This document shows positions 3,857-22,528 of a stretch of DNA of 64,000 bases, piece after piece (the first letter of the stretch is position 1; each line of letters begins with the position of its first letter). The stretch lies in NCBI RefSeq assembly GCF_000512895.1, contig NZ_CP007033.1:2591001-2655000 (forward strand), written 5' to 3'. This DNA comes from Dehalobacter restrictus DSM 9455. GTDB lineage: Bacteria > Bacillota > Desulfitobacteriia > Desulfitobacteriales > Syntrophobotulaceae. Under the pieces are notes generated by a model. That model worked only from the letters and a program-made list of their open reading frames with translations. It had not been told where the DNA came from and did no database searches. The position numbers and the translations under genes were made by a program.

Positions 3857-3861
3857 TCTAT

Positions 3862-3952
3862 CTACCCCTTTCGGTAGCCCGGCTGTCATAACCTTTCGGT
3901 GTTAGACCCGTGGCTTTGCGTCTCCGTCTTTCGACGGATTTGCCATTATCGT
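3862..3952 (-). ncRNA. c-di-GMP-I (GEMM-I) riboswitch
   Basis: On the minus strand the sequence contains the GEMM-I core: GGCAAA, a stem closed by a GAAA tetraloop (CCGTC-GAAA-GACGG), GACGCAAAGCC, then GGGTCTAA. A second arm carries the receptor-like GACAGCCGGGCTACCG. The order and the invariant bases match the Vc2-type aptamer as I know it. The 3' end runs into the GGGG ribosome site of the gene starting at 3856, which suggests control at translation. Whether c-di-GMP turns the gene on or off cannot be read from sequence alone. Confidence 0.88.
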
Positions 3953-4190: not shown

Positions 4191-5525
4191 TTATTCATAT
4201 CTCAACGCTTCAATGGGATCAAGTTTAGCTGCCTTATTGGCCGGATAGAAACCAAAAAATACGCCGATCGCCATAGAAAATAAAACACTAATAATTGTTA
4301 CCGGTATGGATATTGTCACAGGAGCCTTTAATACAACAGAGACAATCGTGCCGACCAGGGTGCCAATAATAATGCCGATGCCCCCCCCGATGCCGGAAAT
4401 GATGACTGCTTCCGTGACAAATTGAAATTGGATGTGAAAGTTTTTGGCACCTAAAGCTTTCCTGGTACCAATCTCTCTTGTTCTCTCGGTGACAGATACC
4501 AGCATGATGTTCATTACCCCAATTCCTCCGACGAGTAAAGAAATTCCGGCAATAAACGCAATAGCTAAGGAAATCGTACTAATAACACTTAAAATTGAAT
4601 TTAACTGCGTCTCCATACTATTTACCCTTGCACCCCATACTGAATTATTTTTATAAAGGTTATCAAAATAAGTCGTCAGCTGGGTTGTAAAAGCCAGTAC
4701 GTCCGTATCCCCGCTTGCCACTACCGTAATTCGGGAATAGTTCTTCTGGGACGCATCCAGATTTGCTGTGGATATCGGGATATAAAGATTAGTGGACAGA
4801 TCTTCCTCTGAAGCCGTGCTTACCTGACCCATACTTGATTGTTCATATTTATATACCCCTATAATCGTATACAATTCAATAGAATTGGTCTTATATATTT
4901 TTACGTCTTGGGAGAGCGGATCAGTGCCATCCGGAAACATATTTTCCACAAATTTATCGGATACGATTGCAACATTTCGATAATTTCTTACGTCTTTCTC
5001 TGATAGGTACCGTCCTTTTAGGATCTCCAAATTATTCGCCAATAAATAATCTGCGTTGGTTCCGGTCATGGTAATATTGGCATAGAGATCTCCATCTTTG
5101 GCAGTTGCACTACCAACAGAAGATTCCAACGATACACCTTTTATGTCAGCGGGAAAAGCTTCCTTTATTTGTTCAATCATTTTATCTGAAATCAAATCCG
5201 AGTCTTCAGGTTCCGAGGTATTTCCGCTTCCTCTCATTCCCGGAGGTCCTCCAGCTCCAGACGGTGCTCCGCCTGCCGCACCACTAACGGGTCCCAATAA
5301 AGACATCGTCCGTTGTTTTTCAGATTTCTCCCTAATTGAAATGGTAATGTTATTTGTCCCAAAAGAAGATAAATTTGAATTGACAGATGCCGTAACGGCA
5401 TTGCCGATCGTTACAATTGCAATTACAGAAGTGATACCAATAATGATCCCAAGCATTGTTAATAAGGCTCTCATTTTATTTGCTTTTAAAGAGGCAATGG
5501 CCAATATGATGTTTTCCAAGATCAT
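4191..5525 (-). CDS. MacB/FtsX-type ABC transporter permease
   Basis: The 444-residue permease has the MacB topology. One N-terminal membrane helix (MLGIIIGITSVIAIVTIG, about residues 24-41) precedes a large external domain of ~270 residues. Three C-terminal helices follow, with the conserved VTERTREIGTRKALGAK loop. The outer domain carries a Gly/Pro-rich insertion (about residues 82-105). MacB family members export peptides, toxins or lipoproteins by a mechanotransmission mechanism and need an adaptor. The ATG overlaps the end of the ATPase gene by 4 bp, so the two are translationally coupled. The adaptor of this operon is destroyed, so the pair may be inactive unless another adaptor substitutes. 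Confidence 0.9.
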   Translation of the reverse strand: MILENIILAIASLKANKMRALLTMLGIIIGITSVIAIVTIGNAVTASVNSNLSSFGTNNITISIREKSEKQRTMSLLGPVSGAAGGAPSGAGGPPGMRGSGNTSEPEDSDLISDKMIEQIKEAFPADIKGVSLESSVGSATAKDGDLYANITMTGTNADYLLANNLEILKGRYLSEKDVRNYRNVAIVSDKFVENMFPDGTDPLSQDVKIYKTNSIELYTIIGVYKYEQSSMGQVSTASEEDLSTNLYIPISTANLDASQKNYSRITVVASGDTDVLAFTTQLTTYFDNLYKNNSVWGARVNSMETQLNSILSVISTISLAIAFIAGISLLVGGIGVMNIMLVSVTERTREIGTRKALGAKNFHIQFQFVTEAVIISGIGGGIGIIIGTLVGTIVSVVLKAPVTISIPVTIISVLFSMAIGVFFGFYPANKAAKLDPIEALRYE

Positions 5526-6235
5526 AGGTTTGCCTCCTTAACCAATTGTCTATTGCTGCGAGAATTGTCACTGATGATCATTCCATCACTGATTGTTATC
5601 AGTCTATCCGTACGCTCCGCTAATTCATGATTGTGTGTGATCAGGACAATCGTCTTATGCTCTTCGCGATGGACTTTTAAAAAAATATCCATGACCAATA
5701 ATCCTGTTTGCGAGTCCAGCGCACCAGTAGGCTCATCTGCCAAAATAATTGACGGATCATTGGCTAAAGCCCTGGCGATTGCAACCCTTTGTTTTTGTCC
5801 TCCGGAAAGCTCATTAGGCATATGCATCATTCTATCCTTCATCCCAACCAGTTCTAATAAAGCCATAGCTCTTTGTTTTCTTTGTTCTTTGCGAATTCCC
5901 ATATAGAACAAAGGCAATTCTACGTTGTTTAAAGCGTTAATTCTAGGAATTAGGTTAAATGTCTGGAAGACAAATCCAATTTTTTTATTCCGTATTTCAG
6001 ATAATTGGTTTTGGTTCATATCCTGAATCGGAATTCCCCCAAGCTTGTAAACCCCGGACGTCGGCCGATCTAAAGCACCGATTATATTCATCAACGTGCT
6101 CTTGCCGGAACCAGAGGCCCCAACAACTGCTACAAATTCGCCTTTTTTAATATTCAAATTGATGCTTTTTAAAATTGTAAGTTCATTTGGCTTACCAATG
6201 TAGTACTTTTTGGTCAGGTCATTTATTTTTATCAT
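5522..6235 (-). CDS. MacB/LolD-type ABC transporter ATPase
   Basis: A complete ABC ATPase: Walker A GASGSGKST near residue 40, Q-loop (FVFQTFNLIPR), signature LSGGQKQRVAIARAL, Walker B IILADEPTGALD and H-loop LITHN. The length (~237) is normal for the MacB/LolD group. Either an ATG at 6235 or a GTG at 6241 could be used; the ATG is better spaced from GGGGTGG. It is followed without gap by the permease and preceded, 37 bp away, by the broken adaptor gene. Confidence 0.9.
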   Translation of the reverse strand: MIKINDLTKKYYIGKPNELTILKSINLNIKKGEFVAVVGASGSGKSTLMNIIGALDRPTSGVYKLGGIPIQDMNQNQLSEIRNKKIGFVFQTFNLIPRINALNNVELPLFYMGIRKEQRKQRAMALLELVGMKDRMMHMPNELSGGQKQRVAIARALANDPSIILADEPTGALDSQTGLLVMDIFLKVHREEHKTIVLITHNHELAERTDRLITISDGMIISDNSRSNRQLVKEANL

Positions 6236-7334
6236 GAACACACACCACCCCTATTTCTTCAATTCCCTGCTTCAGTTCGTTTCTGGCCTAGTCGGAGGTG
6301 TTCCTGTTCCTGCTGGTGGTGTCTGTTTTCCTGAAGATTGTGATTGATTGTTATTTGCCCGCTGAGCCTTAATTTCCCCAGCTGCAGCTTGATCAGTTCC
6401 TATATCAGCTTTTTGCCCTAGTATGACACTTCCTGGATTGGTAACGATCTTCATCCCATCTTGCAAACCTTCTCCGACAATTTCGATATTTGTGTCATTT
6501 TCAATTCCGGTTTTAACTGAAACTTGGATAACCGTATTGTCTTTTAGGGTATAAACTGTACTTTGACCATTTTTACCAGTTATCACTGTATCATAAGGAA
6601 CAGTATATACATTGTCCTTGGAAGTCACGATGATACTTAGAAAGGCATTCATTCCTATTTTCATCAAAGGATCCGGATTTGAAATTTTGACTTTGATTTC
6701 AAACTCAACATTAGTTGAACTGGAATCGCTGACCGCTTTCGGCGATATATAAGACAGTGTCCCTTTAAAACTATTATTTCCTGTAACATTGGTCTTGACC
6801 TGGACTTCTTGCCCCACCTTAAGCTTGCTGATGTTAAACTCTTTTACTTTTGCTGCAACAAATAAATCTCCTGCATCTTCAATCACAAAGAGTATTCCAC
6901 TAGGTGCTAAGCCAACTTCAGCATTTGATTCCGTTACAGTACCGCTGGTCGGCGCAACGATATTACAATCCGTCAGCTTCTTCTTTAAATCATTCTGATT
7001 TGTTTCAGCCTCATGATAAGTATCCTTAGCATTTTCCAGCGCATTTAAAGAATTGTTCAAATCTAGCAAAGACACAGCACCTTCTTCATAAAGTACTTTA
7101 TTGTTCTCATAATCAGTTGATTTCGTAGTAATATCCCTCTCTGCTGCCTTTTGTAAACGGTCAATAAAAATACATCATTTTTGGCCATTTAAAATGCAGC
7201 ACTTGGCCACTATTTTTACATAAATAGATTTATCCTGGTATTAAGTTAGGACCTGCTCCTGTAAAACCGGAAAGAGGGCGTAGCCCGAATGGAGGTTTTA
7301 CAGGAGCGTCGGCCTTTACCTACCCTTACTGAGA

Positions 7335-8084
7335 TTATTTTTTTAATATTCTTTCCCTGTGGTTAAGCCTGTAACTATCACCGTCCATATCAAATATTTC
7401 ACATTTGTGCATCAGCCTGTCCAGCATGGCTGCGGTTATTACCGGATCACCCATAAATTCTCCCCATTCTACAAGTCCTTTGTTTGATGTAAGAATGATG
7501 GATGTCTGCTGGTACAGCTGGTTTACTACCCCAAACAGCAAGTTTGCCTCATTTCTGTTTACCGGCTGAAATCCAACCTCATCAATGATGACCAATTCGG
7601 CGGCATAGAGTCTCTTTAGTTTGTACTTGCCCTTTACGGATATCTCCTGAGTTTTTAAGGCATGGATCAATTGATCCATATGGATGAATATTACTTTGTA
7701 GCCAGCATTTACTGCCGCAATTCCCAGCGATACTGCCAAGTGGGTTTTCCCAACGCTGGGCGGGCCTAAAAACATAATGTTAAATGCACTTTCCAGCCAG
7801 GTTAGTTCCTGTAACTGTACCATTTGCTTTTTGGTTACACTGGTCTGAAAAGCGAAGTCGAACTCTTCTATGGTTGCCATATAGGGGAATCCTGCGATTT
7901 TCAGTCTTTTTTCTCTGGCTTTATCCCATCTGGCCTGGCGTTCTTCAGCAAGCAGCATGTTTAGTGTCTTGAGCGTTGACCAATCTTCCATTTGAGCTTT
8001 TTCCATGATTTTTTCCAGGCCCTGGGAGGCTTTCTTTAGCGATAAGACGGACAATTGTTCTTGTACTTCCTGCAGGAGGGTCAT
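7335..8084 (-). CDS. istB: IS21-family helper ATPase IstB
   Basis: The 249-residue product is a DnaC/DnaA-like AAA+ protein that selects targets for the IS21 transposase. It has Walker [10 protein letters not shown], Walker [10 protein letters not shown] and the sensor region [14 protein letters not shown], with the usual IstB length. Its ATG overlaps the istA stop codon (8081-8084), the standard IS21 arrangement. The gene itself looks intact. Confidence 0.93.
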
Positions 8085-9142
8085 TGTGAGTCACCCCCCT
8101 TCGTGAACCGGGCATACTCGGATAACGGCCTTTTCTTGGTATTCATGTAGGTTTTTAGTAAAGTGACTTTAGGATTCTGGCTTACTTTCTCTTGTTCTAT
8201 CTGAAGGTTGGCTTCAAAATATTGAGCAGCATTGCGGAATTCTACTGCAGAAAAAAGACTATGCATCAGGCAATATTCCAGAGCTTTTTTGACTGTTGAT
8301 TCCGTATGGGTCGAAATTGTTTGTTCCATCAGGTTGAATTGGTCCCTGGCATACCTGGATTTTAAATAACGGATCTGGGTTAGGAAAATACAGGCATCCT
8401 CGCTTGAACCCAGCTTTTCAAGAAGATTATCTTGTAAATCGTCAAGTTTCTTAGTGTTATCCCGTTTATGGTTATTGTTTTGTACTAATTGCCCCTTGCT
8501 CTTTGAAATCTTATGTTCGGCGATAAGATATCCGTCAAAATCATCCCGGATTTTAAGGCTGTCGCCTTCTATGTCCAGGGTTACTTTCCGGCCTGGTTGG
8601 TAGGTTCCAAGAGGCAGCGTATACCGGTTCCCTTTGTAAAATATGGTATTGTTCTTATGCACATCTCTTGTTAGAATGGACTCATAAGATTTTATTGTTT
8701 GGGGTACCGGTTTTAGGAATAGTCTTTCTTGCTCAAAGACTTCTGCCGGTACTTTTTTTATTATGGAGTGAATTTTGGCGTTGCCGGTTCTTTCCAGCCA
8801 TTCGCTAAAACTCTCATTCCACATATCTATCTCTACAAATTGACGGTTCTTGGCAAAACCGTTTTTAAAGTATTTGACGGTTGCTTCAATTCTACCCTTG
8901 CTTTCAGGGTCGGCCCCGCGACAGAGATAGACTTCAAATCCGCTGGCTAACCTAAACTGTTCAAATTCTCGGGTGAAGATAATGTCACCATAGTTTTCAT
9001 CGACTGCCAGTAACCGGTCCTGATCAAAAACAAGTTCTTTTGGCATTCCACTCAGGGCTTCAAAACATTCCTGTAACACGTCCCATTTTCTATTTAGAGT
9101 GCTGTATTCGGTGGCCGCTTTTGCTGCATTTCTATTGGCCAT
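8081..9142 (-). pseudogene. istA: IS21-family transposase IstA, N-terminally truncated
   Basis: The frame encodes 353 residues, shorter than the ~500 usual for IstA. It begins within the terminal repeat (MANRNAAKAATEYS) and joins directly to a mid-protein segment. It reads through the second catalytic aspartate region (KELVFDQDRLLAVDEN) and the catalytic glutamate region (CRGADPESKGRIEATVKYFK) to the normal C-terminal Mu-type domain. The N-terminal helix-turn-helix and the first catalytic aspartate are missing. I infer a deletion of roughly 450-600 bp between the element end and the gene body. The remaining frame is open. Confidence 0.82.
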
Positions 9143-9371
9143 TTTTGCTGTATTTTATTATACCGCTAACACCTTTAAAGTCAGCTGGGCTTTATCTAAG
9201 TCCGTAGATAGTGATTCCGTATCCAATACTGCCATAATCTGACCTGCTTTCACCTTATCACCAACGTTGACACGAATTTCTTCAACAGGATATGTAACAC
9301 TGGAACAAACGTTCATTGTTTTGGCACTATAAATTGTCCCTGAGTAAGCGTCAAACCCATTCAGACGTGAG

Positions 9372-9656
9372 CTACATGAAGTCAGGCTCATCTACTCCAA
9401 GAAGATCGCACAGAGCATTGTTAGCCATTATCCTAAAATCATCATCAGATATGGTGTTAGCTTGAGCATATTCGAATACATTATCGACAGTGGTAACGAA
9501 TTTTCGCGCTAAACGAGAATCCTCCTTTTTCATCTTTGGAAAATGCTCAATAACATAGCCCGAATAATCTATTTCGAAGAGATATCGTGATATCTTTCCA
9601 TCTGCAAAATCGGAGATAAAGTCTATCATAAACGCCGTATGTTTTCCAACCTTCAT
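9372..9656 (-). CDS. Small IS66-associated accessory protein
   Basis: A 94-residue protein starting at an ATG that overlaps the tnpC stop codon by one base (TGATG), so the two are coupled. It has no membrane segment and is rich in charged residues, with ADGKISRYLFEIDYSGYVIE followed by a helical part and an acidic C-terminus. It lies inside the IS66 ends and so belongs to the element, although most IS66 members have only three genes. Function unknown. A GTG at 9671 is an alternative but less likely start. Confidence 0.6.
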   Translation of the reverse strand: MKVGKHTAFMIDFISDFADGKISRYLFEIDYSGYVIEHFPKMKKEDSRLARKFVTTVDNVFEYAQANTISDDDFRIMANNALCDLLGVDEPDFM

Positions 9657-11256
9657 CAGTCTTCCTCCCACACATATTTTTCCGGACTTGCGTTACCAAG
9701 CTGCGGGGTGAATACTTTCTTCGGCAAGGCTGCACTACCAGGTAAAAAGTCTGTAATTTCAGATATGTAACCTGCTCTTCCTAAGTTAGGGGCATTTGTA
9801 AAAATCCACGTTAAATATTCAAATGGATTCAAGCCATTTTCTCTTGCACTCACAATCAGGCTGTAATAAATGGCACTGGCCCTGGCACCGTTTGGTGTGT
9901 TAGTAAAGATCCAGTTCTTTCGACCGATTACAAAAGGTTTAATACTCCGTTCCGCACGGTTGTTTGAAATTTCAAGACGTCCGTCCAGCAGGTATCTCTC
10001 AAGATATTTTTGTTGGGACTTAGCATAATGTAGCGCTTTACAAGAAGGGTGTTAGGCAAAACAGCAAGCCCATTGATCCAATTGTAAAATTCATCAAACA
10101 CAGGCCCTGATAGGCGTTTACGCTCTTGAAGGCGTTTATCCGGGGCAAGGGAAGCAAACTGTTTTTCAAGGTGGAACAGTCTGTCTAAGTAAGCAACACC
10201 CTTTGCCGCATTGGACTGTGGTTGTTTTTCCTTGGGCAGGGTTTTAAAGGCATCGAAAAACTTCCGCCTAAGATGTGCCAGGCAGCCCACAACAATGATG
10301 TTTTTAGGAAGCTTATGATACCCTTCGTATCCATCTGTGTGAAGGTATCCTTTAAAATCTTTCAGAAATTTTTCAGGATGGGTATGTTTTCTGTCGGGCT
10401 TATAGTCATAAATTACAATCGGGTGTAATGTATCTCCGCTGGTACGATACAACCACATGTAACTCTTTGACTGCGCCGTCTTTCCCGGTTCTTTCAACAC
10501 TTGTAAGGTAGATTCGTCTGCATGCAACACTTCATGCTCACATAATCGTTGTTTCATCTCTTCATATATCGGTTCCAGCCAGTTTTCACTGGCCTTGATT
10601 AACCAGTTTGACATCGTCTGCCGGGAAAGCAGGATGCCTTTTTGTTTCCACTCTTGCTCCTGTCGGTATAGTGGGGACGCCATCATGAATTTCTGTATCG
10701 CGATATGGGCTATTGTCTCGGGGGATGCAAATCCGCCTTTAATGACAGGTTCCGGCATATCTGCTTTTATGATAGGAACATGTTCGGCAGTTCCTTCACA
10801 ATGACGGCAGGAATAAATATGCCGTACGTGCCGTGTAATGATTGCTTTGGCAGGAATGACCTTTAATTCTTCGCGAGTTTCCCTCCCCATCGTATGTAAC
10901 TGACTGCTGCAATTCGGGCAGATACAATCTTCTGCCGGAAGCGTGTGTTCAATTACCTCAACAGGTAAATCCTTTGGCAATTTATCCGTTGTGAGGCGTG
11001 TCCGTTTGCGATAATGCGCCTTTACCTCAGCAAGCTTCGGTTCCGGCACGGTCATATCGGCATTTGATTCGGCCTCGTTGAATATGAGCAGCTGAATACC
11101 GTCAGTCTGTTCACTTGATGCGCCAAATTGTTTATGCTTTGCAAGGCGGATCTGTGACATAAACCACGCGACTTGCTGTTCTAATTCAGCAATTTTGCGG
11201 TCCTTTTCTTCAATTATTTCAAGCAGTTTTCCTGCTGAAGTTTCTTGCGTTTTCAT
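9656..11256 (-). pseudogene. tnpC: IS66 transposase TnpC, frameshifted
   Basis: The first part (11256 to about 10040) has the coiled-coil leucine-rich start, the zinc-binding region (CICPNCSSQL, CRHC) and the catalytic aspartate regions (LHADEST and HTDGYEGYHK). Near 10041 one base appears to be missing: the frame turns to nonsense, while the next frame continues with GKALHYAKSQQKYLE and then NNRAERSIKPF, which holds the catalytic glutamate. The C-terminal tail runs to the stop at 9656. The enzyme therefore lacks its catalytic Glu unless frameshifting repairs it. Confidence 0.88.
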
Positions 11257-11331
11257 AAGTAAATCATACCAGAAAAACCGCGAAAAAGCTAGATTTCATG
11301 CGGTTTAAAGCACTCTTCCAAGATAAATATT

Positions 11332-11682
11332 TTAAGAGATTTGCCGCTCGAAAACTTCTTCCCGTTTGAGTTTTTTCTCCAGTTTCGCACCTTCGATAAG
11401 ATAAGATAATTCTTTGGTTTCAAGAACCATGGTGGCACTGTCTCCCTTTGCTGGCCAGCGAAAATGTCCGCGCTCCAGACGCTTGAAATACAACCAGAAT
11501 CCGTCGCCGTCCCATTCCAGAATTTTTATTCTGTTCCGATGACGGTTGCAGAACACGAACAATGCTTCAGAAAACGGATCGAGGGAAAAGTCGTCTTTAA
11601 CCAGCGCCATGAGCCCATTGATAGATTTTCTCATATCGGTATGCCCGCAGCAGATGTACACGGGTTTGTCATTGAATCTCAT
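11332..11682 (-). CDS. tnpB: IS66 family protein TnpB
   Basis: A 116-residue product typical of IS66 Orf2, with CCGHTDMRKSINGLMALV near the N-terminus, FVFCNRHRNRIKILEWDGDGF in the middle and the usual KRLERGHFRWP. Needed for transposition in this family, mechanism unclear. It begins directly at the end of tnpA (shared base at 11682). Confidence 0.92.
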   Translation of the reverse strand: MRFNDKPVYICCGHTDMRKSINGLMALVKDDFSLDPFSEALFVFCNRHRNRIKILEWDGDGFWLYFKRLERGHFRWPAKGDSATMVLETKELSYLIEGAKLEKKLKREEVFERQIS

Positions 11683-12035
11683 TACAGCATCCTCAATATG
11701 CGGCAGACTTTTTTCAGAAGTTCAGGATCTGTATGTGCATCCACGGTAACGTGACAGCCACCGACTTCAATATCCAGCGTTGATTTCACTTCTTGACCTT
11801 GGGAAAGTTGCATCCATCCTTCCGGGACACAGCTTACGACGGTTTCTTCCTTCCGTTCTGAAAGTTCCATACATGCAGCCTTTCGTAACTGTCGTTGCCA
11901 ATAAAAGTATGCATGCCTACTTATTCCTTTCTCCTGGCAGAAATCGTTAATGCTCTTGCCGCTGCATTGTCGTTCCTGTATCACCTGCATCCACTGTGAT
12001 CGTCGGTACGCTGCTGTGACTTTTTGTATATCCAT
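11682..12035 (-). CDS. tnpA: IS66 family protein TnpA
   Basis: A 117-residue product with a helix-turn-helix (SGKSINDFCQEKGISRHAYF) followed by YWQRQLRKAA, typical of IS66 Orf1. It is the first gene of the element, 121 bp inside the right end. Confidence 0.9.
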   Translation of the reverse strand: MDIQKVTAAYRRSQWMQVIQERQCSGKSINDFCQEKGISRHAYFYWQRQLRKAACMELSERKEETVVSCVPEGWMQLSQGQEVKSTLDIEVGGCHVTVDAHTDPELLKKVCRILRML

Positions 12036-12179
12036 ACAACCACTCCGTTATTAGTTGAAAAAGTGTGCAAACTTTTTCAACTTTTTCAACCCTATTTAAT
12101 GTGATTGTACTACCTTCAAGGCTGCTATTCTATGTGACGGTGTCTTTGACGCTTACACAACTTAAGGGATGTTTCCATA

Positions 12180-12201
12180 CACTAAGTTATTAAGCGTTTA
12201 C
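12180..12201. repeat. Orphan IS66-type terminal repeat
   Basis: CACTAAGTTATTAAGCGTTTAC matches the right end of the intact IS66 element at 18968-18989 in 18 of 22 positions (my alignment) and has the same orientation. It lies 24 bp outside the IS66 element at 9344-12156. It is probably the remnant of an earlier IS66 insertion in the lost 5' part of the adaptor gene. Confidence 0.5.
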
Positions 12202-12294
12202 GTTTTTCTTTTAGTATATAACAGAACCTCTACACGATGCTCTTATCCACATCAGCATAGAGGTTTGCATGATCTGAAACTTTCAAAAATTAAA

Positions 12295-13578
12295 CTATAT
12301 ACCTTTTTTTAGCCACTCATACTGGTTATACAATTGATATAACTCGATTTCCGCTTTTTGAACCTTATTTTTCTGGGATTCATAAGCTAACTTGCTATCT
12401 CCAAGCGATGTAGCAGAGCTGATCCCAATTTTAGAAATTAAGCCTAATTCATATTTCTTTTGGTATTCAACATAGTCGGAACTTTTTTTATCTAAATCCC
12501 TTATGGCTAGTTTTAGTTCTTCGTCTTTCGTGACTATTGAATCATAAAGTTTCTTAAAATCACTTTTAAATTGATCCTTAAGAACTTGTAATTTTCTGTT
12601 CTCTGTTGCCAAGTTTGCCTCCGCTTGTAACCGACTTGTGTCATCCTTATCTTTAGATGATAATCTATCCGCTGCATCATATTTTTGATCACAGCTGATT
12701 TGTTGTATTTTTATCCCATAGTTATTAGCTAATGCTTCTTCATAGTCTTTCGAATAATTAAGAGCACTTACAGAGTATTCCTTTAAGTTCGGTAGATCAC
12801 CAAAAGTTAGAGAAGTATTACTATCTTGCCCCAGCATCAAATTTGCTAAACGAATGATTCCTTCTATTTGAGTATTTGTAGCGCTTAACGAGTTTTTATA
12901 GCTTTCTAATTGATTATTAAAAGCAATTACACTACTATTAGTTACGATTCCTAATTTTTTCTGCAGTTCTAAAACTTCTTTCTTTTTGCTATTTGTGTCG
13001 ATTGAATTCTGTATGTCTTGTTTTTGTATCTGGAGTAAATAATAACTCAAAAAAATATCATCCTGAAAACTCTTTACATTAACGTAATTATTTTTCTCTG
13101 TTGTTAATTCTGCACTCTCAATTGTATAATCAACATCATTGTTTGAACTCGTTGAATCATATTGTACTGCTTGAGAGTTATTTGTAAGCCGTAATTGAGT
13201 AGCATTATAACTGTATAAATTTTTTATTAAAGTAAGATTATTGTTTAGCAACGCCAAGACGTTTGCTGGAATCCCTGCATCACTATATTGAGGAGTATTT
13301 GCGACAGAAGCTAGGTTGTTAATCTGTTGGCCAGTCTGTGCTATTTGATTTTCGAGCTGGTCTGTTGTATCTTCAGAATTTGATTTTAGTAGCTTAGTAA
13401 TTGCTAACGCTTCATTTTGAATTCGAACACTTGGACTTCTATCAAGGACTTCCTTTTGTATATCTTTAAATTCTATTTTATTAATAGGCATAGGATCAGG
13501 GGTTTTCAAATCAGCTCCGAAGCATAGAGCAGGCAACAATAACACAAATGCTAAAGATATATTAAGTACCTTTCTCAT
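12295..13578 (-). CDS. TolC-family outer membrane factor-like protein
   Basis: This encodes 427 residues from the ATG at 13578 (AGAGG site 8 bp before); a frame upstream to 13605 is less likely. A signal peptide (KVLNISLAFVLLLPALCFGA) precedes long helices rich in Asn, Gln, Lys and Ser, in a duplicated pattern as in TolC/OEP proteins. The C-terminal half has KYELGLISKIGISSATSLGDSKLAYESQKN, which I read as the second OEP repeat. TolC is the outer exit duct of MacAB pumps in diderm bacteria; related proteins in monoderm Clostridia presumably cross or sit in the thick wall. It is first or second in the MacAB-like operon. It is AT-rich compared with its flanks. Confidence 0.7.
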   Translation of the reverse strand: MRKVLNISLAFVLLLPALCFGADLKTPDPMPINKIEFKDIQKEVLDRSPSVRIQNEALAITKLLKSNSEDTTDQLENQIAQTGQQINNLASVANTPQYSDAGIPANVLALLNNNLTLIKNLYSYNATQLRLTNNSQAVQYDSTSSNNDVDYTIESAELTTEKNNYVNVKSFQDDIFLSYYLLQIQKQDIQNSIDTNSKKKEVLELQKKLGIVTNSSVIAFNNQLESYKNSLSATNTQIEGIIRLANLMLGQDSNTSLTFGDLPNLKEYSVSALNYSKDYEEALANNYGIKIQQISCDQKYDAADRLSSKDKDDTSRLQAEANLATENRKLQVLKDQFKSDFKKLYDSIVTKDEELKLAIRDLDKKSSDYVEYQKKYELGLISKIGISSATSLGDSKLAYESQKNKVQKAEIELYQLYNQYEWLKKGI

Positions 13579-13648
13579 GATTAACCTCTTCTTTCTAAAA
13601 TACATAATGTTAAATTGATATTACCCCCATCTGACTCATCAGTCAATA

Positions 13649-14461
13649 CTAAAAGAATAATTGCTTTACATTATAAATTTTCCATGCATTATCTTCGAAT
13701 TGAGCATATATTACAATTTGAGATCGATATAGATTATCTAATTTTACTTTGTTATTTTCAAGATATGCTTGGGATGCAGATGAATATTTTAAATCAAACG
13801 TATATAATAGCCTACATAATGTCATTTCCTGATTAAACCAAATTTTTGGAGTTATATTTTCCGATTGACCTATATAGTGACTAATTATTTGGTTATCCTG
13901 TAACTGTTTGTTAAATTTATCGATAAATTTATTTTCCGTGAATGTTTTTTGTCTTTCCATGGTATATAATTTCAAGCTTTTTTCGCCGTTATTACTTTCT
14001 TTATAAGATACATTGTACATGCTTGAAATAAAGGTATCCGCAATTGTGATCAAGGAAGTCACATTATTATCTTCTGCCTTTAGAAATTTTGTTTCCTTTG
14101 GCTTCACATAACCATCCGCTACTCTGTCAAAGAATTTATATACTTCTTTAATCTTAGAATCTTTTTCATCTTGGCTATTTTTTTGCGATTGTTGATTTAC
14201 AGGTTCATTGTCTGTACTATTTTCTTTCATGGGGTCATTTACACCCATTTTACTGTTATCTTCGTCTTTTTGTTTAGATTGACTATTGTCTACATTCCCA
14301 TCCGTGGTATTTTCCTGGGGTACTATTATCTGAAAGTCTGTCTTGGTTTCTGAAAGTTTCGGAGTATAATTTACCTGGTTTTTAGAGCAAGCCGAAATAG
14401 TAATAAGGAAAATAATCAAACTGTATACAGCAAAATATTTTAGCTTTTTTGGTATATTCAT
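13649..14461 (-). CDS. Lipoprotein of unknown function, head of the export operon
   Basis: The 270-residue protein has a classical lipoprotein signal (YFAVYSLIIFLITISAC, lipobox ISAC) behind a strong AGGAGG site. A Ser/Asn/Gln/Asp-rich linker follows (about residues 45-95), and then a ~170-residue C-terminal domain with an aromatic-rich end (YAQFEDNAWKIYNVKQLFF) of the kind found in NTF2-like or DUF4829-like extracellular domains; I cannot assign it. It lies 71 bp upstream of the TolC-like gene in the same orientation and shares its AT-rich base use. Confidence 0.7.
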   Translation of the reverse strand: MNIPKKLKYFAVYSLIIFLITISACSKNQVNYTPKLSETKTDFQIIVPQENTTDGNVDNSQSKQKDEDNSKMGVNDPMKENSTDNEPVNQQSQKNSQDEKDSKIKEVYKFFDRVADGYVKPKETKFLKAEDNNVTSLITIADTFISSMYNVSYKESNNGEKSLKLYTMERQKTFTENKFIDKFNKQLQDNQIISHYIGQSENITPKIWFNQEMTLCRLLYTFDLKYSSASQAYLENNKVKLDNLYRSQIVIYAQFEDNAWKIYNVKQLFF

Positions 14462-14985
14462 CTTGGTTTCCTCCTATCTCAATTTTAAAATATATCAACA
14501 GATTACTCTGTCAATTGCAGTATTTCTTAGAATGCAATATAATACATGTTTTTCGCAGGTTCTATCCAAAACTCACCCTATCATAACTCACTGAGTCCAT
14601 GCCCTTACATTCCTTCGTGATAAAAGCGGAGATAGCGTTTAAGCTTAAATACCGGGTCATGCCCTAATGGAGGAAATCTCCTTATCTCCGCTTTATCAGC
14701 GTGTTTCATGTCTCTTGCTTTGCTGCGTCATAGGCACTTTCCTTATCGGAAGTCAATGGCGGCGCAGCCGTTTTATGTACCCTTGACTCCAGCACAAACC
14801 AAAACCCTTGTAACAGGCTGCTTAAGCCACATTTAGGCTTAAGCAGCTTAACTGCAAACAGGGGAAATGAATCTTGAGTTTCACAACTTATGCTGCTTCT
14901 TTTATCTGATTTTTTCTGTATTCGCCAAGCACTAATTCTGCTTTGTATTCTGTTTGCTTTTTCACCAGGTTATATATCACTGTTA
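14462..14985. other. Non-coding stretch with an inverted repeat, 3' flank of the IS110 remnant
   Basis: No convincing gene. TGATAAAAGCGGAGATA (14618-14634) and TATCTCCGCTTTATCA (14683-14698) form an inverted repeat around a 48-nt loop. A short palindrome around AAGCAGCTTAA lies near 14840. The stretch may be the end region of the decayed IS110 element or an unrelated hairpin. Nothing else is seen. Confidence 0.4.
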
Positions 14986-16150
14986 TTATTTTCTTGGAAA
15001 TAACAACTTGTTTCTTCTTGAGGGGATTGTTTTCGCGGTTTTTAGGTATTGGTAAAGCTCTTTCATTTCATTGTTTACTGCAATCATGATCATGGCCATC
15101 CGGTATAAAACACTCCTTAAGTTTCTTCTTCCACGCTTTGAAATTAACTGTTGTGCTTTCACTCTTGCGGAGCTATCCTCAACAAGATTGTATCCGGCCA
15201 TTTTGCTTATTTGACGCGGATGGTCAAATCTCAATGGATCGCCTGTGTCTCCCAGAAAACTCGCTGCACTAACTACTCCTATGCCGGAGATGCCAAGAAT
15301 TATTCGCCATATTTTGTCTGAGCTAAGGCCAATTCCATAGCGTTTTCCAGCTGCTCAAGCTGTTTTGTTAATAGTTCCAGTTCCTCAATCATTAATTCTA
15401 ACTTGAGCTTTGCCGATACGCTTCCATATCTAACTCAGATGGAGTTTTCTCTCTACAAGCTGCTACGCCTTTTTCCTGCCTACGGTCTTTTTGACAACCT
15501 TCTGTATCTCGGCAAGTACCGCCTTAGTCTCCAATTCAAGTATCAACGATGTGAATGGACAGGATTTTAATACCTGCATGGACGCTTTCCCGTTCATTGA
15601 ATTTTTGAATACGATTTTAATTCCACGAAAGTTATTCATCCATTACTGCTGTTATCGTGTTTCTTAATGCGTTATACCGCTTCATCAAGCTGATCCTCTC
15701 GTTTGTTAACACCCTTAATTCCGTGAATATATCCTGGGGCATATATACTTCATAATACCTACCGTCACGCACAAGTTTTGCTATGGTTAGCACATCTTTT
15801 TTGTCGCTTTTAGTCTGGCTGTTGTCATCAAGTTCTTTGGCCCGCTTGGTGTGATACGGGTTAACCATGACCACGCATTATCAGATGGTCTTCCAGTGGT
15901 TTCCAATACCACCCTATCGGTTCCATTCCGAGGATTATATCGTTAAGTCTTTTGTTCTTGTAAATTGCTTACATGCTTACTAATATATTTCGAAGCCACT
16001 TTTATCGTTCTGGAATTTCAGGGCTTTCCCTAGTTCTATACCGCGATAATCCAGGAACCGTGCCCACTGCGTTTCTTTGGCGATATCTACTCCTACTATC
16101 AGTGTTCTTGGTGTTATTGCTTCTAATTTTAGATTGTTACGGTTCTTCAT
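14986..16150 (-). pseudogene. IS110-family transposase, decayed
   Basis: From an ATG at 16150 with a GGGGG ribosome site, the frame gives the RuvC-like first motif VGVDIAKETQWARF and then breaks after ~55 residues. A second piece (15874-15632) carries the DEDD middle with the KSDKKDVLTIAKLVRDGRYY motif. A third (15234-14986) carries the C-terminal Transposase_20 part (ISKMAGYNLVEDSSARVKAQ, then SKRGRRNLRSVLYRMAM). At least two frameshifts or stops separate them, so the gene is dead. On its 5' side lies the imperfect inverted repeat CCCCCTGATTTTCTATGATT / AATCATAGCAGGGGG (16158-16223). Confidence 0.85.
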
Positions 16151-16157
16151 CTGTTTA

Positions 16158-16223
16158 CATCCCCCTGATTTTCTATGATTTTTGTGCGTTTGCTAGGCAC
16201 ACATAAAATCATAGCAGGGGGTT
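16158..16223. repeat. Inverted repeat at the IS110 element start
   Basis: CCCCCTGATTTTCTATGATTTTTGTG and its imperfect reverse complement CACACATAAAATCATAGCAGGGGG are separated by ~14 bp, just upstream of the IS110 transposase start. IS110 elements often carry structured non-coding ends; some encode bridge RNAs from such regions. No function is claimed for this decayed copy. Confidence 0.5.
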
Positions 16224-16509: not shown

Positions 16510-18051
16510 TCATTTTTTACACTCTTCCTGTACTCGAGGCGACCAAGGCATCAGTTCTTCCAAAGCCTCCGGATTATTTCGATAATCTGTATCCGGCATG
16601 TACATGAGCAGATAGCTCAGGTATGTATAGACACTAAGCCCATTCGCCTTAGCGGTCTCCACAATACTGTACACAGCAGCGCTTGCGGAGGCACCCTTTG
16701 GGGTATCGGCAAATAGCCAGTTTTTTCTTCCTAGAGTAAAGGGACGGATGCTGTTTTCGGCCGCGTTATTGGAAATGGAACACCTTCCATCAAGTAGGTA
16801 GTTCTCCATATACTGTTTCTGGTTCTTTGCATAGGTCACTGCTTTGCCGAGGGCAGAGCTCTGCAGTATATGGAGGGAGTCCAGCCAGCACCAAAAGGCA
16901 TCTAGAACCGGCCTTTCCAGCTCAAGACGCTTGGCATATTTTTCTTCCGATGTAAGTTCGGACAGCCCATCTTCGATTTTAAACAGCCGATTGCAATAAT
17001 CCCGACCGATTTCCGCATTTGTTAGCGGAGAATCTTTCGCCCGGTTATCCGGGATGGCCTCTATGAACTTGCGGCGGAGGTGAGCCCAGCAGCCGCATCG
17101 AACAATTTCTGCCAGCTTATTGTATCCTGAGTATCCGTCGCTGTGCAGGAACCCGCTGAATCCCTTCAGATATTCGGCGGCATTTTCGCCGCTTCTTGTT
17201 GTCCTGTAGTCATACAGGATAATGGGCTCCTTCCCGTCTTCTCTAGTACGGTACAGCCACATGTAAGACTTGGACTGTGGCCTTCGGCCATTCTCCTTCA
17301 ATACTTGGACCGGTGATTCATCACAATGGAGGACATCTCGCTTCAGGAGCTGTTCCCGAAGGTATCTGGTAACGGGATACAGGTAATCCTGTGAGCACCG
17401 GATGATCCAGTTGGCCATCGTCGCCCTTGAGAGGGAAAAACCAAGCTGCTCCCAGTCCTTTTCCTGGCGGTAGAGTGGCATGGCATTCACGTACTTCTGG
17501 TACATGACATTTGCTACCGTGCTGGGCGATGCCAGAGAATGATGCATGAGAGAAGATGGTGTCAGTGCTTTTTCTATATAAGGTGTATCCGTATGCTTGC
17601 ATTTGAGACACTCATAGGACATTCGCACATACCGGATAATCTGCAATTTTGGTGGAATGTATTCCAGTTCCTCACGGACGGTCTCTTTACCAATCGGCTT
17701 GAGCGTGACTCCGCAGTTGCCGCAGTAAAGATCTTCCTCGGGAATCTCACATAAGATTTCTTTGACAGGAAGATCCTTAAGTAATACCTCCCGTTTCGTT
17801 TTAGCCTTTCGCCGCTTATAGCCGTTTACGTCCTTTACGACGGGTTCAGGGACATGAGGATCGGCTTCTAACTCTGCCTCATTGAACAGGCTAAGTTGGT
17901 CACTGATTTCCTCACGCGGCGTTTTTTCACTGGAACTGCCAAATTTCCCTTTGCGGAGAAGGAGCACCATCTCGGTAAGGTTACTTACCTGCTGTTCCAG
18001 GCTCTTTATTGTATTTTCCAGCTGCTCGATGTAGGTGTCCTTTGAAACCAT
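16510..18051 (-). CDS. tnpC: IS66 transposase TnpC
   Basis: A full-length 513-residue transposase: N-terminal coiled coil, zinc-binding region (YCGNCGVTL and CLKCKHTD), catalytic aspartates in LHCDESPVQVL and HSDGYSGYNK, catalytic glutamate in NNAAENSIRPF, and the usual tail (VETAKANGLSVYTYLSYLL). All expected motifs are in one frame, in contrast to the copy at 9656-11256. It lies downstream of tnpB and ends 78 bp from the left end of the element. Confidence 0.95.
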   Translation of the reverse strand: MVSKDTYIEQLENTIKSLEQQVSNLTEMVLLLRKGKFGSSSEKTPREEISDQLSLFNEAELEADPHVPEPVVKDVNGYKRRKAKTKREVLLKDLPVKEILCEIPEEDLYCGNCGVTLKPIGKETVREELEYIPPKLQIIRYVRMSYECLKCKHTDTPYIEKALTPSSLMHHSLASPSTVANVMYQKYVNAMPLYRQEKDWEQLGFSLSRATMANWIIRCSQDYLYPVTRYLREQLLKRDVLHCDESPVQVLKENGRRPQSKSYMWLYRTREDGKEPIILYDYRTTRSGENAAEYLKGFSGFLHSDGYSGYNKLAEIVRCGCWAHLRRKFIEAIPDNRAKDSPLTNAEIGRDYCNRLFKIEDGLSELTSEEKYAKRLELERPVLDAFWCWLDSLHILQSSALGKAVTYAKNQKQYMENYLLDGRCSISNNAAENSIRPFTLGRKNWLFADTPKGASASAAVYSIVETAKANGLSVYTYLSYLLMYMPDTDYRNNPEALEELMPWSPRVQEECKK

Positions 18052-18145
18052 AAAACGGCTTTTCTCCCAACGGTTTTTATGGTTTTATTATACCACAAAA
18101 ATGGGCTAAAATCCAGTAAATACGGCACTTTCAGCCGTTTTAACC

Positions 18146-18502
18146 TCAGCAAAAAGCGCCTGGTTTCACCTTCTTTATGGCTCTTGGCTGATCTATCTCC
18201 AGACCTTCCATCAGCCACTTGAACTCCTGCCATGTAAGAGACCTCACCTGATCTGCAGACCTGGGCCATTTAAAGTTTCCGTTTTCGAGGCGCTTATAAA
18301 GAAGTACAAATCCGTCGCCTTCCCAGAGCAAGGCTTTGATACGATTCCGACGCTTGCCACAGAACAGATAGAGACTGGATGCGAAAGGATCAATGCCGAA
18401 GGTTTCCTGGACAAGGGCTGCTAGTCCGTCAATAGATTTACGCATATCCGTATAACCGCAAGCGATGTAGATCTCTTTTGCTGCTGTAATGTCTCCTAAC
18501 AT
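18146..18502 (-). CDS. tnpB: IS66 family protein TnpB
   Basis: A 118-residue IS66 Orf2 protein with ACGYTDMRKSIDGLAALVQE, then YLFCGKRRNRIKALLWEGDG and KRLENGNFKWPRS. It overlaps tnpA by 7 bp, so the two are translationally coupled. Confidence 0.93.
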   Translation of the reverse strand: MLGDITAAKEIYIACGYTDMRKSIDGLAALVQETFGIDPFASSLYLFCGKRRNRIKALLWEGDGFVLLYKRLENGNFKWPRSADQVRSLTWQEFKWLMEGLEIDQPRAIKKVKPGAFC

Positions 18503-18852
18503 AGAGATTTTAAAGCTAGCAAAACGGCTTCAAGAGTTTTTTGGGATGTTCCTTCCTTGACTTCAACCGTTGCGGATGGAAGATGAATGATGACGGCAGC
18601 ACCAGTTCTTAATGTATCCACATGAAGTTTTGCAAATTCGACGGGCTTCTTGTTTTCAGGCTGTGTAGTCGGAAGTTGATGTAAATATGCTTTCATGCGG
18701 ATTTGTTTCAGCCAGTAGTAGTATGCCGATTCACTTATATTATTCTGTTGACACCAAGATTTTACGGTCATACCACTAGCCTGAAATTCCTTAATCAACC
18801 GCACCCACTGTTCCATACGGAACTGGATTTTAACTGGGGTTATTTCATCCAT
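18496..18852 (-). CDS. tnpA: IS66 family protein TnpA
   Basis: A 118-residue IS66 Orf1 protein with a helix-turn-helix (ASGMTVKSWCQQNNISESAY) followed by YYWLKQIRMKA. It is the first gene of the element. Near-repeats of CTTGAAAAACT lie between its start and the right end (about 18889-18930). Confidence 0.92.
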   Translation of the reverse strand: MDEITPVKIQFRMEQWVRLIKEFQASGMTVKSWCQQNNISESAYYYWLKQIRMKAYLHQLPTTQPENKKPVEFAKLHVDTLRTGAAVIIHLPSATVEVKEGTSQKTLEAVLLALKSLC

Positions 18853-19153: not shown

Positions 19154-22100
19154 CTATTCTGCAGTTTCAGTAATGGAAACTGTTTTTCCAGTTCTACCTG
19201 CAAAGTACGGAATGATAGCAGTACCACCAGTACCTTCTGTTGTATGGGTGAAGGACCAATTAGCTGCTGGAGCAAGGTCAATCCGCATCGATGCTCCCTT
19301 AGCGTAGTCTTTAACGCCGGCTGCTTGAACTAAGAGGTTAGATCCAAGATAATATGTCTTAGTTGTATTAGCAGCAATCTTAACGCCTTGAGTAGCTGGC
19401 GTATCACCAACGACAATAGTACCACCTACAGCAGTACCAACAGTATTTGCAGCAGCACCATCGTCAGTTGCATCCATCGGATCTGTGCCGGTGAATGTTG
19501 TGACTGCTGTATCATCGCTAGCATCACGCAGGATCCAAAGTTCATCGCTATCTGCATCGATACTTCCAGCAAGTACAAACATATCGATAAACCCAGCCTG
19601 GTTCATGAATACGTCAGTACCTCCATTATTAGTTACTTTGAATTGAATGAGTTTGGTGTTATTGGATCTCAGGCCAGTTAAAGTTGCTTCGCTATCGATT
19701 GCAATCGTAACGGCATGAGTACCATAGGTCAGAGCAGCAGGAGAAAGATTAGGTGTTCCTGTACTGGTTACAATGATCTTAGAAGAATCACCCTTACCGG
19801 TAATATCGCCAGCTGCTGCAACTGCCAACAGAACTGTACGTCCTGCAGTAGCCCCCGAAAGGATATCAGCTTTTACAGTGAAGGTCTTCTTGTTTGAAGA
19901 TCCTTTCATAACGCTGCCAGTGATGTCGGTCCACGTAATTGTCCCCGCAGCTGTGGGTTGGACAGAATCACCGACTTGAGTATCACCATCCCACAAAGTT
20001 ACATTTGCAAGGATTTGATCAAGAGTTTCTGCCCCAGCTCCAGCAAGAGTAGCTGTGAGCTTAACTTTTTTCATGTCTGTGAAATCTTCAGCACCTGCTT
20101 CAACAACGACTTTCCCTACAGGAGTCTGGCTTAAAGGTGAAGCAATTGTGTATGCTTCGAGAGATTTAGAGGCAATAGTAGCTGTAACTGTCAATGCTCC
20201 GCCGTTAATAAACTCTTTTGCCTGAGCTGAGCCAGGAATAGCAGCAGCTCCGTAGAGTGCTTGACCTGTTAGATTGCTGTCGGGCAGATCATAGACAAAA
20301 CCTACAGCTGCACCAGTACCATCGATTCTGCAATCAACACCGGTGTTATTTGCAACCCATGTAGCAGCAATCTGTAATTTTTTTGTCTGGCTAGCAGTGA
20401 TATACCAGTTAACATCAGTAAATGATACTATTGAACCAGAAGCAACTGCTGTAGCAGCAACAGGGCCAGCAATAATATTACCAGTATCCCCATCCTTGAG
20501 ATAGAACGCACCAAATACAGCGTTCTGGTTACCACCACCAGCAAATGTAACCTGAACATCAACATCGGTTACAGTCATTGGCTCGCCTTTCGACTTAACC
20601 AAGTATTCTCTGATAACACCAGCAGTGTTAGCTGTTGCTACAATTTTTGCACCTGTGTTCGGCGAGTTAACACTGGAAACAAGCTCTACGCTGCTGCCAA
20701 CAACATTGAAAGCAGCTACAGAGAACGCAACATTTGTGCCAGTCACAGGGATGTTAGAATTACTGTTCTTTCCAGTAGCTACTACATCATAGTTATTAGC
20801 TACTTTAAACTGAATAGTACCTGTACCATTGGACAAAATATCGCCCTTAAGTGTATAATTTACGGTTTGGCTCTTTGGAATTTCGATCGGAGAAGCACTA
20901 AAGTCAAAAAGAACCTTGTTATCTTTAACTGTGCCTAATACTGCTATTTTTTCATCAGTTGCTGATTTGTAGAGATAGAAATTTTCAAAGTTTTTGAGGT
21001 CATTTCCTGTAGAAGTTAAAGTGAGTGTTTTGATGAGAGATGCCTCGGTCCCATTTGATGCAAAATTAATATCTCCAAGAACAACTTGATTGGCACCAAC
21101 ATTAACGTTAGTAGCTCCGGCATTAGCACCGGCAGTAACTGTGAATGCACCAAGAGCAGCTCCTTTAATTGTAAAGGTATTGCCTTGGAAAGCAGAGAAA
21201 GATGCTAAGCTATTAGCTGTTGCAGTGGCAAATGCATCGGCTTCTAATCCCATTACAACAGTTCTAGTAGCACCAGCAGTATTCCTGATATCTACCGCAA
21301 TGGAGAAAGTCTTTGTAGTATTGGCAGGAACCGCGATAGATTTATTCAACCTGAATTGTGAATCGATCGGTGCAGCAGATGTCAAGACATCATTGCCCTC
21401 CAGGAGGTATGCTCTTGTAATATCAGTATTATCACCAGCAGCAGTCCCATATTCCTTTGCAACAACACTAGTAAAAGTAAAATCACTTGTACCAGCAGTG
21501 ACCTGGAAGGAAAGGACTTTGTTCAACGGTGAACTCTGATATACATCGCCACCCGCAGGTTGACTTGAAACAACAACTTTGGCAGTTGAACCAGGGGCAA
21601 CTGTTTCTTTGCCAACACCGGCTTTAACAGTGTCAGAAACAGCACTGGTTCCACCAACTGCAACCACTGTAGTAGCAGAAGTAACTTTGGAAATAAGTGT
21701 AGCGTTAGCTGCAACAGAGCTACCATTAGTCAGTGCAACAAAAGCATTAGCTTTAGCAGCTAAAGGAGCTACCGCAAGAGCATCAACAAGGCTCATGCCG
21801 TTAGCTACATATACTTTGCTGTAATCAAAGGTGAGCTTGCCAGCAACAGCATTATTTGTAGCAAAACGATCAGCACCGGCAATACGTTCTACACCTGCGA
21901 TATCTGCTACTTTTGCAGTGCCGCCAACAATGTATTTAGTTGTACCAACAAGATCAGCACTAGCAACAGTGCCATTACCATTGGCAAGTACGATCGCATA
22001 TTTGTTCTTGGCAGCATAGGATGCAACTGACAGAGCGTCAGGAATAGCATCAAAGCCAACAATAAAAGTACCTGCAGGGCTGGTCAATTTAGCATTGACA

Positions 22101-22528
22101 GCTTTTGCAGTTTCGATGCGGCCATTGCCCTTGAGTGCTTCAACAGTAACACCTGTCATAGCATCTACTTCAGCAGCGACGTCAGCGGAAATAGCACCGA
22201 CAACATAAACCTTGGTAGCACCGAGAGCTGCAATTTTAGCTTTTACAGCAGCGTCTAGGGAGCCTTTGAATGTTAAAAGGATCGGGGCGTTTTCCTGGCC
22301 TGCCAAAGGTGCAGCAGCCAGAGCGTCAACGAGGTTGGCTTGGTCGGCAGGAGCAAGTACAACTGTAGTACCCCATGTTCCTGCACTGGCGATATCAAGA
22401 GCGGTAGCAATGCGGTCTGCACCGGAAAGTCTGGTGCTGTCGGCTGTTGCAGCAAACATAGCAGCAGGCATCAGGGTCAGAACCATAGCAATGATAGCTA
22501 ATACGGCTATCTTCTTCGTTCTACTCAT
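19154..22528 (-). CDS. S-layer-like protein with three CWB2 repeats
   Basis: The 1,124-residue product starts with a signal peptide (VLAIIAMVLTLMPAAMFAA) and three CWB2 repeats (about residues 30-305; first TRLSGADRIATALDIASA, third VERIAGADRFATNNAV), the module that non-covalently holds surface proteins to an anionic wall polymer in Clostridia. The remaining ~800 residues are Ala/Thr/Val/Asn-rich, nearly Cys-free and low in charge. They repeat about five times a strand motif such as TVNYTLKGDI, KTFTVKADIL or KTFSIAVDIR, suggesting a chain of Ig-like domains. Length, composition, strong AGAGGAG site, long leader and strong terminator point to the main S-layer protein. It could instead be a large adhesin. 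Confidence 0.85.
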   Translation of the reverse strand: MSRTKKIAVLAIIAMVLTLMPAAMFAATADSTRLSGADRIATALDIASAGTWGTTVVLAPADQANLVDALAAAPLAGQENAPILLTFKGSLDAAVKAKIAALGATKVYVVGAISADVAAEVDAMTGVTVEALKGNGRIETAKAVNAKLTSPAGTFIVGFDAIPDALSVASYAAKNKYAIVLANGNGTVASADLVGTTKYIVGGTAKVADIAGVERIAGADRFATNNAVAGKLTFDYSKVYVANGMSLVDALAVAPLAAKANAFVALTNGSSVAANATLISKVTSATTVVAVGGTSAVSDTVKAGVGKETVAPGSTAKVVVSSQPAGGDVYQSSPLNKVLSFQVTAGTSDFTFTSVVAKEYGTAAGDNTDITRAYLLEGNDVLTSAAPIDSQFRLNKSIAVPANTTKTFSIAVDIRNTAGATRTVVMGLEADAFATATANSLASFSAFQGNTFTIKGAALGAFTVTAGANAGATNVNVGANQVVLGDINFASNGTEASLIKTLTLTSTGNDLKNFENFYLYKSATDEKIAVLGTVKDNKVLFDFSASPIEIPKSQTVNYTLKGDILSNGTGTIQFKVANNYDVVATGKNSNSNIPVTGTNVAFSVAAFNVVGSSVELVSSVNSPNTGAKIVATANTAGVIREYLVKSKGEPMTVTDVDVQVTFAGGGNQNAVFGAFYLKDGDTGNIIAGPVAATAVASGSIVSFTDVNWYITASQTKKLQIAATWVANNTGVDCRIDGTGAAVGFVYDLPDSNLTGQALYGAAAIPGSAQAKEFINGGALTVTATIASKSLEAYTIASPLSQTPVGKVVVEAGAEDFTDMKKVKLTATLAGAGAETLDQILANVTLWDGDTQVGDSVQPTAAGTITWTDITGSVMKGSSNKKTFTVKADILSGATAGRTVLLAVAAAGDITGKGDSSKIIVTSTGTPNLSPAALTYGTHAVTIAIDSEATLTGLRSNNTKLIQFKVTNNGGTDVFMNQAGFIDMFVLAGSIDADSDELWILRDASDDTAVTTFTGTDPMDATDDGAAANTVGTAVGGTIVVGDTPATQGVKIAANTTKTYYLGSNLLVQAAGVKDYAKGASMRIDLAPAANWSFTHTTEGTGGTAIIPYFAGRTGKTVSITETAE

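Follow-up and report, generated by a model that had tools for sequence, protein, structure and literature searches.

TolC-like proteins of monoderm Firmicutes have been described, in the accessible part of a 2022 paper, as encoded in pump operons, and a seat in the S-layer was suggested for them (PMC8809574). In the same text, a barrel model of the C. difficile TolC-like protein showed an omission, and assembly in the absence of BAM was posed as a question. Our literature searches on monoderm TolC-like proteins recognised no other paper. An earlier note on the DNA analysed here had called outer membrane factors unexpected in a single-membrane cell with an S-layer; this was not right, since the accessible part of PMC8809574 already presents such proteins from monoderm Firmicutes.

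The DNA in question (the window) is a stretch of 64,000 nucleotides from Dehalobacter restrictus DSM 9455, taken from positions 2,591,001–2,655,000 of a genome that forms a single contig of 2,943,336 bases. It carries a gene for an OEP/TolC-type protein, here called the duct gene, together with a lipoprotein gene, the genes of a MacAB-type pump, S-layer-type genes and several insertion elements (Table 1). A secreted Thr/Asp-rich protein with a DUF5667 domain is encoded at 2522–3889, downstream of the MacB gene.

Table 1. Position, strand and characteristics of the features found around the duct gene of the window
Feature	Position	Strand	Remarks
MacB/FtsX-type permease	4191–5525	−	72–75% identity with the permeases of L103, L188 and L189
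MacB-type ABC ATPase	5522–6241	−	
MacA-type adaptor gene, 3' part	6272–7151	−	50–58% identical to the adaptors of L103, L188 and L189
IS21-family element inside the adaptor gene	7152–9171	−	Family assigned by eye; Mu-type transposase domain in Pfam; flanked by AAAGG
MacA-type adaptor (MFP) gene, inner fragment	9172–9343	−	5' end missing at the IS66 edge
IS66-family element between the duct and adaptor genes	9344–12156	−	No target duplication seen by eye
Stable RNA hairpin after the duct gene	12220–12270	−	z −2.65; no T-run
Duct gene, OEP/TolC-type, without outer-membrane beta-strands (predicted)	12295–13605	−	436 aa; signal peptide by eye
Orphan lipoprotein	13649–14461	−	270 aa; precedes the duct gene at a distance of 43 bp; lipobox ISAC by eye
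Broken IS110-like transposase	14900–16215	−	Recognised by eye
Second IS66-like element, between the S-layer-type gene and the lipoprotein	16510–18852	−	By eye; ORFs resemble those of the first copy
S-layer-type protein	19154–22528	−	First 305 aa share 82% identity with the S-layer-type protein whose gene precedes the duct gene in G052
Subtilase with three CWB2 domains	23060–25819	−	95% identity with its positional counterpart in G051

The earlier note had claimed an OEP/TolC-type protein within 12295–14461. For its gene, a start at 13578, behind a AGAAGAGG-like site identified by eye, is likelier than one at 13605. The Pfam OEP profile matched residues 322–426 of the protein at 23.7 bits (cut-off 22), with one repeat matched, and taken alone this would be a marginal match. 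A second OEP match in the genome (L002) was rejected as another duct because it sits within the adaptor of an RND pump (L003, 9331–10596); a score of this size can therefore be a coiled-coil cross-match. Structure prediction, which the note had proposed as a check, was run with AlphaFold2 on 14 input sequences and gave a model with a pLDDT of 78.7. In VIA-align, rows 1–29 for this model were all TolC/OprM/CusC-type (Z 13.5–21.7) and the following row had Z 11.3; the predicted model aligned with 9tg4_A at Z 21.7 and an rmsd of 2.9 over 307 residues. TolC-type entries likewise filled rows 1–42 in Foldseek. The two-repeat long-helix fold and the tip turns were both present in the predicted model, with helices at 155–217/223–257 and 322–386/401–433. 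For the AlphaFold model of a Paradesulfitobacterium relative (L094), VIA-align rows 1–29 were also TolC-type (Z 12.8–18.1; next 9.5), and the tip glycine was retained in both repeats in nearly all OEP rows examined. The claim was thereby borne out by the Pfam match, the TolC fold and the family evidence, and membership of the TolC family is settled by the latter two.

The AlphaFold2 model of the duct protein contains no beta-strand of at least 3 residues, and the same was found for the L094 model. In repeat 2, four residues (318–321) link helices 296–317 and 322–386 (block mean pLDDT 81 and 89) at the place where TolC has its membrane hairpin. The top of repeat 1 (about 80–151) was modelled as a helical stretch with a block pLDDT of 46–66, and its form is uncertain. 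Missing from the predicted model are the four beta-strands that each chain contributes to the outer-membrane barrel, and the protein was therefore filed as a barrel-less homologue and not as an outer membrane factor. Repeat-2 length was measured as the distance from anchor to tip, after removal of the adaptors L042, L057 and L062, and came to 144 for TolC, 134 for CusC and 92 for the window duct.

The generality of this shortening was assessed in a phylum sample of 398 genomes, with a BamA match in 101 and an OEP match, adaptor cross-hits included, in 287. For the 30 top-ranked PF02321 loci, all from BamA-positive genomes, the repeat-2 distance was 130–172; this sample leans to full-length OEPs by construction because these score higher in Pfam. 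Repeat 2 was short in 28 of the 30 top-ranked OEPs of BamA-negative genomes, drawn from 53 genomes hand-picked for strong OEP matches and with the fragment L157 counted, vs 0/30 of the BamA-positive ones (Fisher test, 8e-15, kinship of the genomes being ignored). All 28 distances were below 110 and 26 were exactly 93. The other two OEPs (L140 and L154) were long. L140 is full-length and comes from G162, an assembly of 450 contigs in which BamA gave no match; either a missed BamA or contamination is possible. Among the matches listed in BamA-negative genomes, three began before profile position 60 (G162 twice, G155 once). In the A-type rows from BamA-negative genomes, all 44 distances were 60–93, the window's own copy (L004) included, and 27 of the 30 remaining rows gave 85–104, the exceptions being L047, L048 and the wrong ORF L036; L036 and the fragment L058 were retained in these counts. 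L047 and L048 are proteins of about 700 aa with a long repeat 2 from genus g8 of the host's family, and the only Pfam match of L047 is OEP. A short repeat 2 is accordingly a near-rule among the BamA-negative OEP samples examined.

Short barrel-less OEPs were also seen in five BamA-positive genomes (L082, L083, L084, L091 and L093, in G373, G129, G452, G201 and G082, respectively), and barrel loss is therefore not confined to monoderms. In G129, G201 and G452, all BamA-positive, a short OEP gene lies less than 2 kb from a full-length one. In a FastTree phylogeny of 138 rows, from which L036, the fragments L058 and L157 and L004, which duplicates the window duct, were left out, the full/short trait requires three changes, and the branch holding the short forms has a local support of 82.

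The MacA-type, ATPase and permease genes that the earlier note had placed after the duct gene are present downstream on the same strand, the adaptor gene being HlyD-type in the domain search. They are not contiguous with it, however: IS66 and IS21 elements intervene and the MacA gene is in two pieces. Adaptor, ATPase/permease and duct genes are found together without interruption in G051 and G053, and intact adaptor genes are present in relatives. As its adaptor gene is broken, the window's own pump is probably dead. An HAE1-type RND pump with its adaptor lies at the window edge (L003, 6047–10596) and has no OEP gene beside it. The duct could be idle, or borrowed by this RND pump.

The lipoprotein that the note had seen preceding the pump genes is also there, with its lipobox recognised by eye. 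Searches of the other 81 class genomes gave no homologue for it, nor did 204 loci at E 1; no Pfam family scored above its curated cut-off, and DUF3828 gave no match even at E 1. The PDB matches, to calmodulin, have the appearance of chance, and a lipoprotein upstream of the OEP gene in L170 was unrelated by eye. A YbjP-type role of the lipoprotein thus lacks support from its sequence.

From upstream to downstream, the window order is subtilase-CWB2, S-layer-type gene, [IS66-like, IS110-like], lipoprotein, OEP, [IS66], MFP, [IS21], MFP, ABC and MacB, with the CWB2 S-layer-type gene on the strand of the duct gene. In G051 and G053 the order is CWB2-OEP-OEP-MFP-ABC-MacB, with two S-layer-type genes in front in G051. 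In 9 of the 12 loci of the host's family the duct gene is preceded on its own strand by an S-layer-type gene, at most two ORFs separating them, and the three loci that differ are those of genus g8; in the other family the count is 0/8. The S-layer label came from phmmer with queries that included a subtilase, and identity to the window was checked in G051, G052 and G057. The genome has 33 CWB2 matches, roughly 11 genes at three each, from which a chance adjacency of S-layer and duct genes would be expected at a few percent per locus, the genomes being related and not independent.

Identity between the window and G051 spans 57–95% over the neighbouring genes and is 95% for the subtilase, 79% for the ABC protein, 75% for MacB, 64% for the N-terminus of the S-layer protein and 58% for the adaptor part; the two OEPs are only 22–36% identical, in pieces. 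High identity of the neighbours with low identity of the OEP points to a conserved cluster that was invaded by insertions and whose duct gene is either highly divergent or replaced. The earlier suggestion of an AT-rich and possibly acquired segment held as to composition: in the base composition scan, the GC3 values of the duct and lipoprotein genes (0.265 and 0.269) were the two lowest of 59 long ORFs (mean 0.492, sd 0.088) taken from the window and from L003, the two sharing 10 kb. Composition is not diagnostic of acquisition, since the OEP genes at the same place in sister genomes are AT-rich too (GC3 0.30–0.37), which makes it a weak sign, and horizontal transfer argued from it alone was rejected. 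In the FastTree phylogeny the window OEP joined, on a long branch with a local support of 91, the OEPs of another family of the order (f2), a placement that is weak. Its repeat-2 length of 92 also resembles that of f2 (92–93) vs 60–66 in the host's own family. Judged from these sequences, replacement of the duct gene is plausible.

Flanks were retrieved for 20 of the 30 BamA-negative top loci, those of G162, G130 and G390 and the seven lowest-ranked being left out. Within 4.5 kb on the same strand, an MFP gene was found in 19 and an RND gene in 17 of the 20, most commonly in the order MFP-RND-OEP and often with TetR next. The spacing R-x3-L-x6-[ST], which the accessible part of PMC4446572 gives for the RLS motif at the adaptor tip, described for OMF binding, occurred in 17/17 adaptors of RND loci and in 22/40 of all adaptors examined; the MacB-type adaptors in this set, including those from the host's genus, lacked it apart from one seemingly misplaced match in L103. 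Among the A-type loci, an MFP gene was nearby in 7/20, and 12/20 had no pump gene within 4.5 kb on the strand, some of these loci ending at contig edges. For the named loci, MFP was nearby in 4/12; the two sets overlap, L094, L096, L097 and L098 for example sharing contigs with L180, L176, L182 and L184. Two duct genes lie close together in L188 (6786–9122), L189 (4952–7944), L104 and L105. All four ducts of G051 and G053 are minimal (315–319 aa), the top being nearly or wholly absent from both repeats. In L177 (G052, 8814–14401) the S-layer/duct place is kept and the pump cassette is different, with a two-component system, a longer adaptor and an ABC protein 52% identical. The pump cassettes behind the S-layer gene seem to have been exchanged.

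Based on the fold, the missing strands, the operon partners and the gene order, we consider it probable that the gene encodes a barrel-less TolC homologue acting as a BAM-independent helical duct, which would lead from the adaptor through the wall towards the S-layer. The duct gene would belong to a large group of TolC homologues that lost the outer-membrane barrel and kept, as predicted, the helical tube and the helical hairpins that meet the adaptor. The membrane hairpin of repeat 2 would have become a tight turn and that of repeat 1 a helical stretch of variable length. Three copies may form the tube, which would meet the adaptor ring of either a MacB or an RND pump tip-to-tip; substrate would then cross the thin wall in the direction of the S-layer. 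As there would be no beta-barrel to insert, BAM machinery would not be required. The open top of the duct is proposed to meet the S-layer because the gene of the host's family usually stands behind S-layer-type genes, and in several genomes before MacA-ATPase-MacB. The earlier idea of a conduit through wall and S-layer gains support from this conserved linkage, export itself being putative. More tentatively, the barrel-less TolC homologues may form a single ancient lineage of ducts that cross the wall of single-membrane Bacillota, BAM-free since the hairpins were gone, with the S-layer of the Dehalobacter family serving as a collar that replaces the outer membrane in a tripartite pump.

Explanations that retain a barrel fit the envelope and strand data poorly. 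If the host had an outer membrane, the duct would be an ordinary TolC, and D. restrictus does stain Gram-negative; the accessible part of PMC11448272 that reports this also gives it a protein S-layer and places it among strains without LPS or BamA genes. No match to BamA or LpxC was found in the host genome (99.98% complete) or in any of the 82 class genomes, 54 of them at least 90% complete, compared with 7/14 and 4/14 control genomes in which BamA and LpxC, respectively, were found. These results and the published entry support the single-membrane cell with an S-layer assumed by the earlier note and, with the lack of barrel strands in the model, largely contradict the ordinary TolC, which is most improbable. 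A hydrophilic beta-barrel with its seat in the S-layer, the picture given in 2022 for the monoderm proteins, would suit the C. difficile homology model, which has its omission in a hydrophilic barrel. That model was built by homology to TolC-type structures (both points from the accessible part of PMC8809574), neither of the two AlphaFold models has a strand of at least 3 residues and repeat 2 is too short for a hairpin; this arrangement is very unlikely here.

Two further readings concern the use of the protein. That the window copy is a relic, with duct, lipoprotein and MacB frames intact but idle in a decaying, IS-ridden locus, is a serious possibility at somewhat less than even chances, and it is compatible with the barrel-less duct as the explanation of the family. 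It would account for the two IS copies that interrupt or adjoin the adaptor gene, the lost 5' end of that gene and the broken IS110-like gene and second IS66-like copy nearby. Against it, the OEP and lipoprotein frames (436 and 270 codons) are open, a good ribosome site was seen by eye and a promoter match of 10/12 lies upstream, although shuffled sequence yields such matches about as often (17 found vs 13.6 expected); moreover, the RND pump in L003 (6047–10596) could use the duct. Descent from TolC to a secreted coiled-coil protein that is no longer a duct, such as a wall or S-layer spacer, would fit the S-layer linkage, the 12/20 A-type loci with no pump genes nearby and the strong drift within the genus (22–36% in pieces). 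Against it, the tip glycine is kept in both repeats of nearly all rows, and MFP genes adjoin 19/20 BamA-negative phylum loci, with RLS-type tips in 17/17 RND loci; we therefore regard it as unlikely. For the barrel-less duct, hairpin loss would simply answer the question on assembly without BAM raised in the accessible part of PMC8809574, since nothing barrel-shaped would have to be inserted. On this view, tripartite pumps with their outer end in the wall or S-layer are predicted, and hairpin loss would mark, at the level of structure, cells from which the outer membrane has disappeared. Named loci in Paradesulfitobacterium, Ca. Dichloromethanomonas and Anaerocolumna offer places to test it.

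Compared with E. coli TolC of MacAB-TolC, the duct shares the two-repeat helical fold, the long helix pairs, the tip glycines and the MacA/MacB-type partners, and differs in its predicted lack of a membrane barrel, in a host without outer membrane genes and in the broken adaptor gene. YbjP, described in the accessible part of PMC13082787 as a lipoprotein partner of E. coli TolC, resembles the window in that a lipoprotein accompanies a TolC-type duct, whereas the window lipoprotein lacks a DUF3828 match. The S. pneumoniae system Spr0693-0694-0695 is likewise a monoderm MacAB-like pump, with an adaptor tube proposed to reach the peptidoglycan; the accessible part of PMC5768738 describes no OEP partner for it. 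The proteins of PMC8809574, in the part accessible, are also OEP-type, come from single-membrane hosts, are encoded in operons with adaptor and transporter and have a proposed S-layer seat. They were modelled with a remaining hydrophilic barrel, whereas here no strands are predicted and nearly all OEPs sampled from BamA-negative genomes have lost the repeat-2 hairpin. What this analysis adds is the predicted complete loss of strands, the nearly constant repeat-2 length, the agreement of this loss with a lack of BamA, and the gene order of S-layer, duct and MacAB, which ties the duct gene to S-layer-type genes within the host's family.
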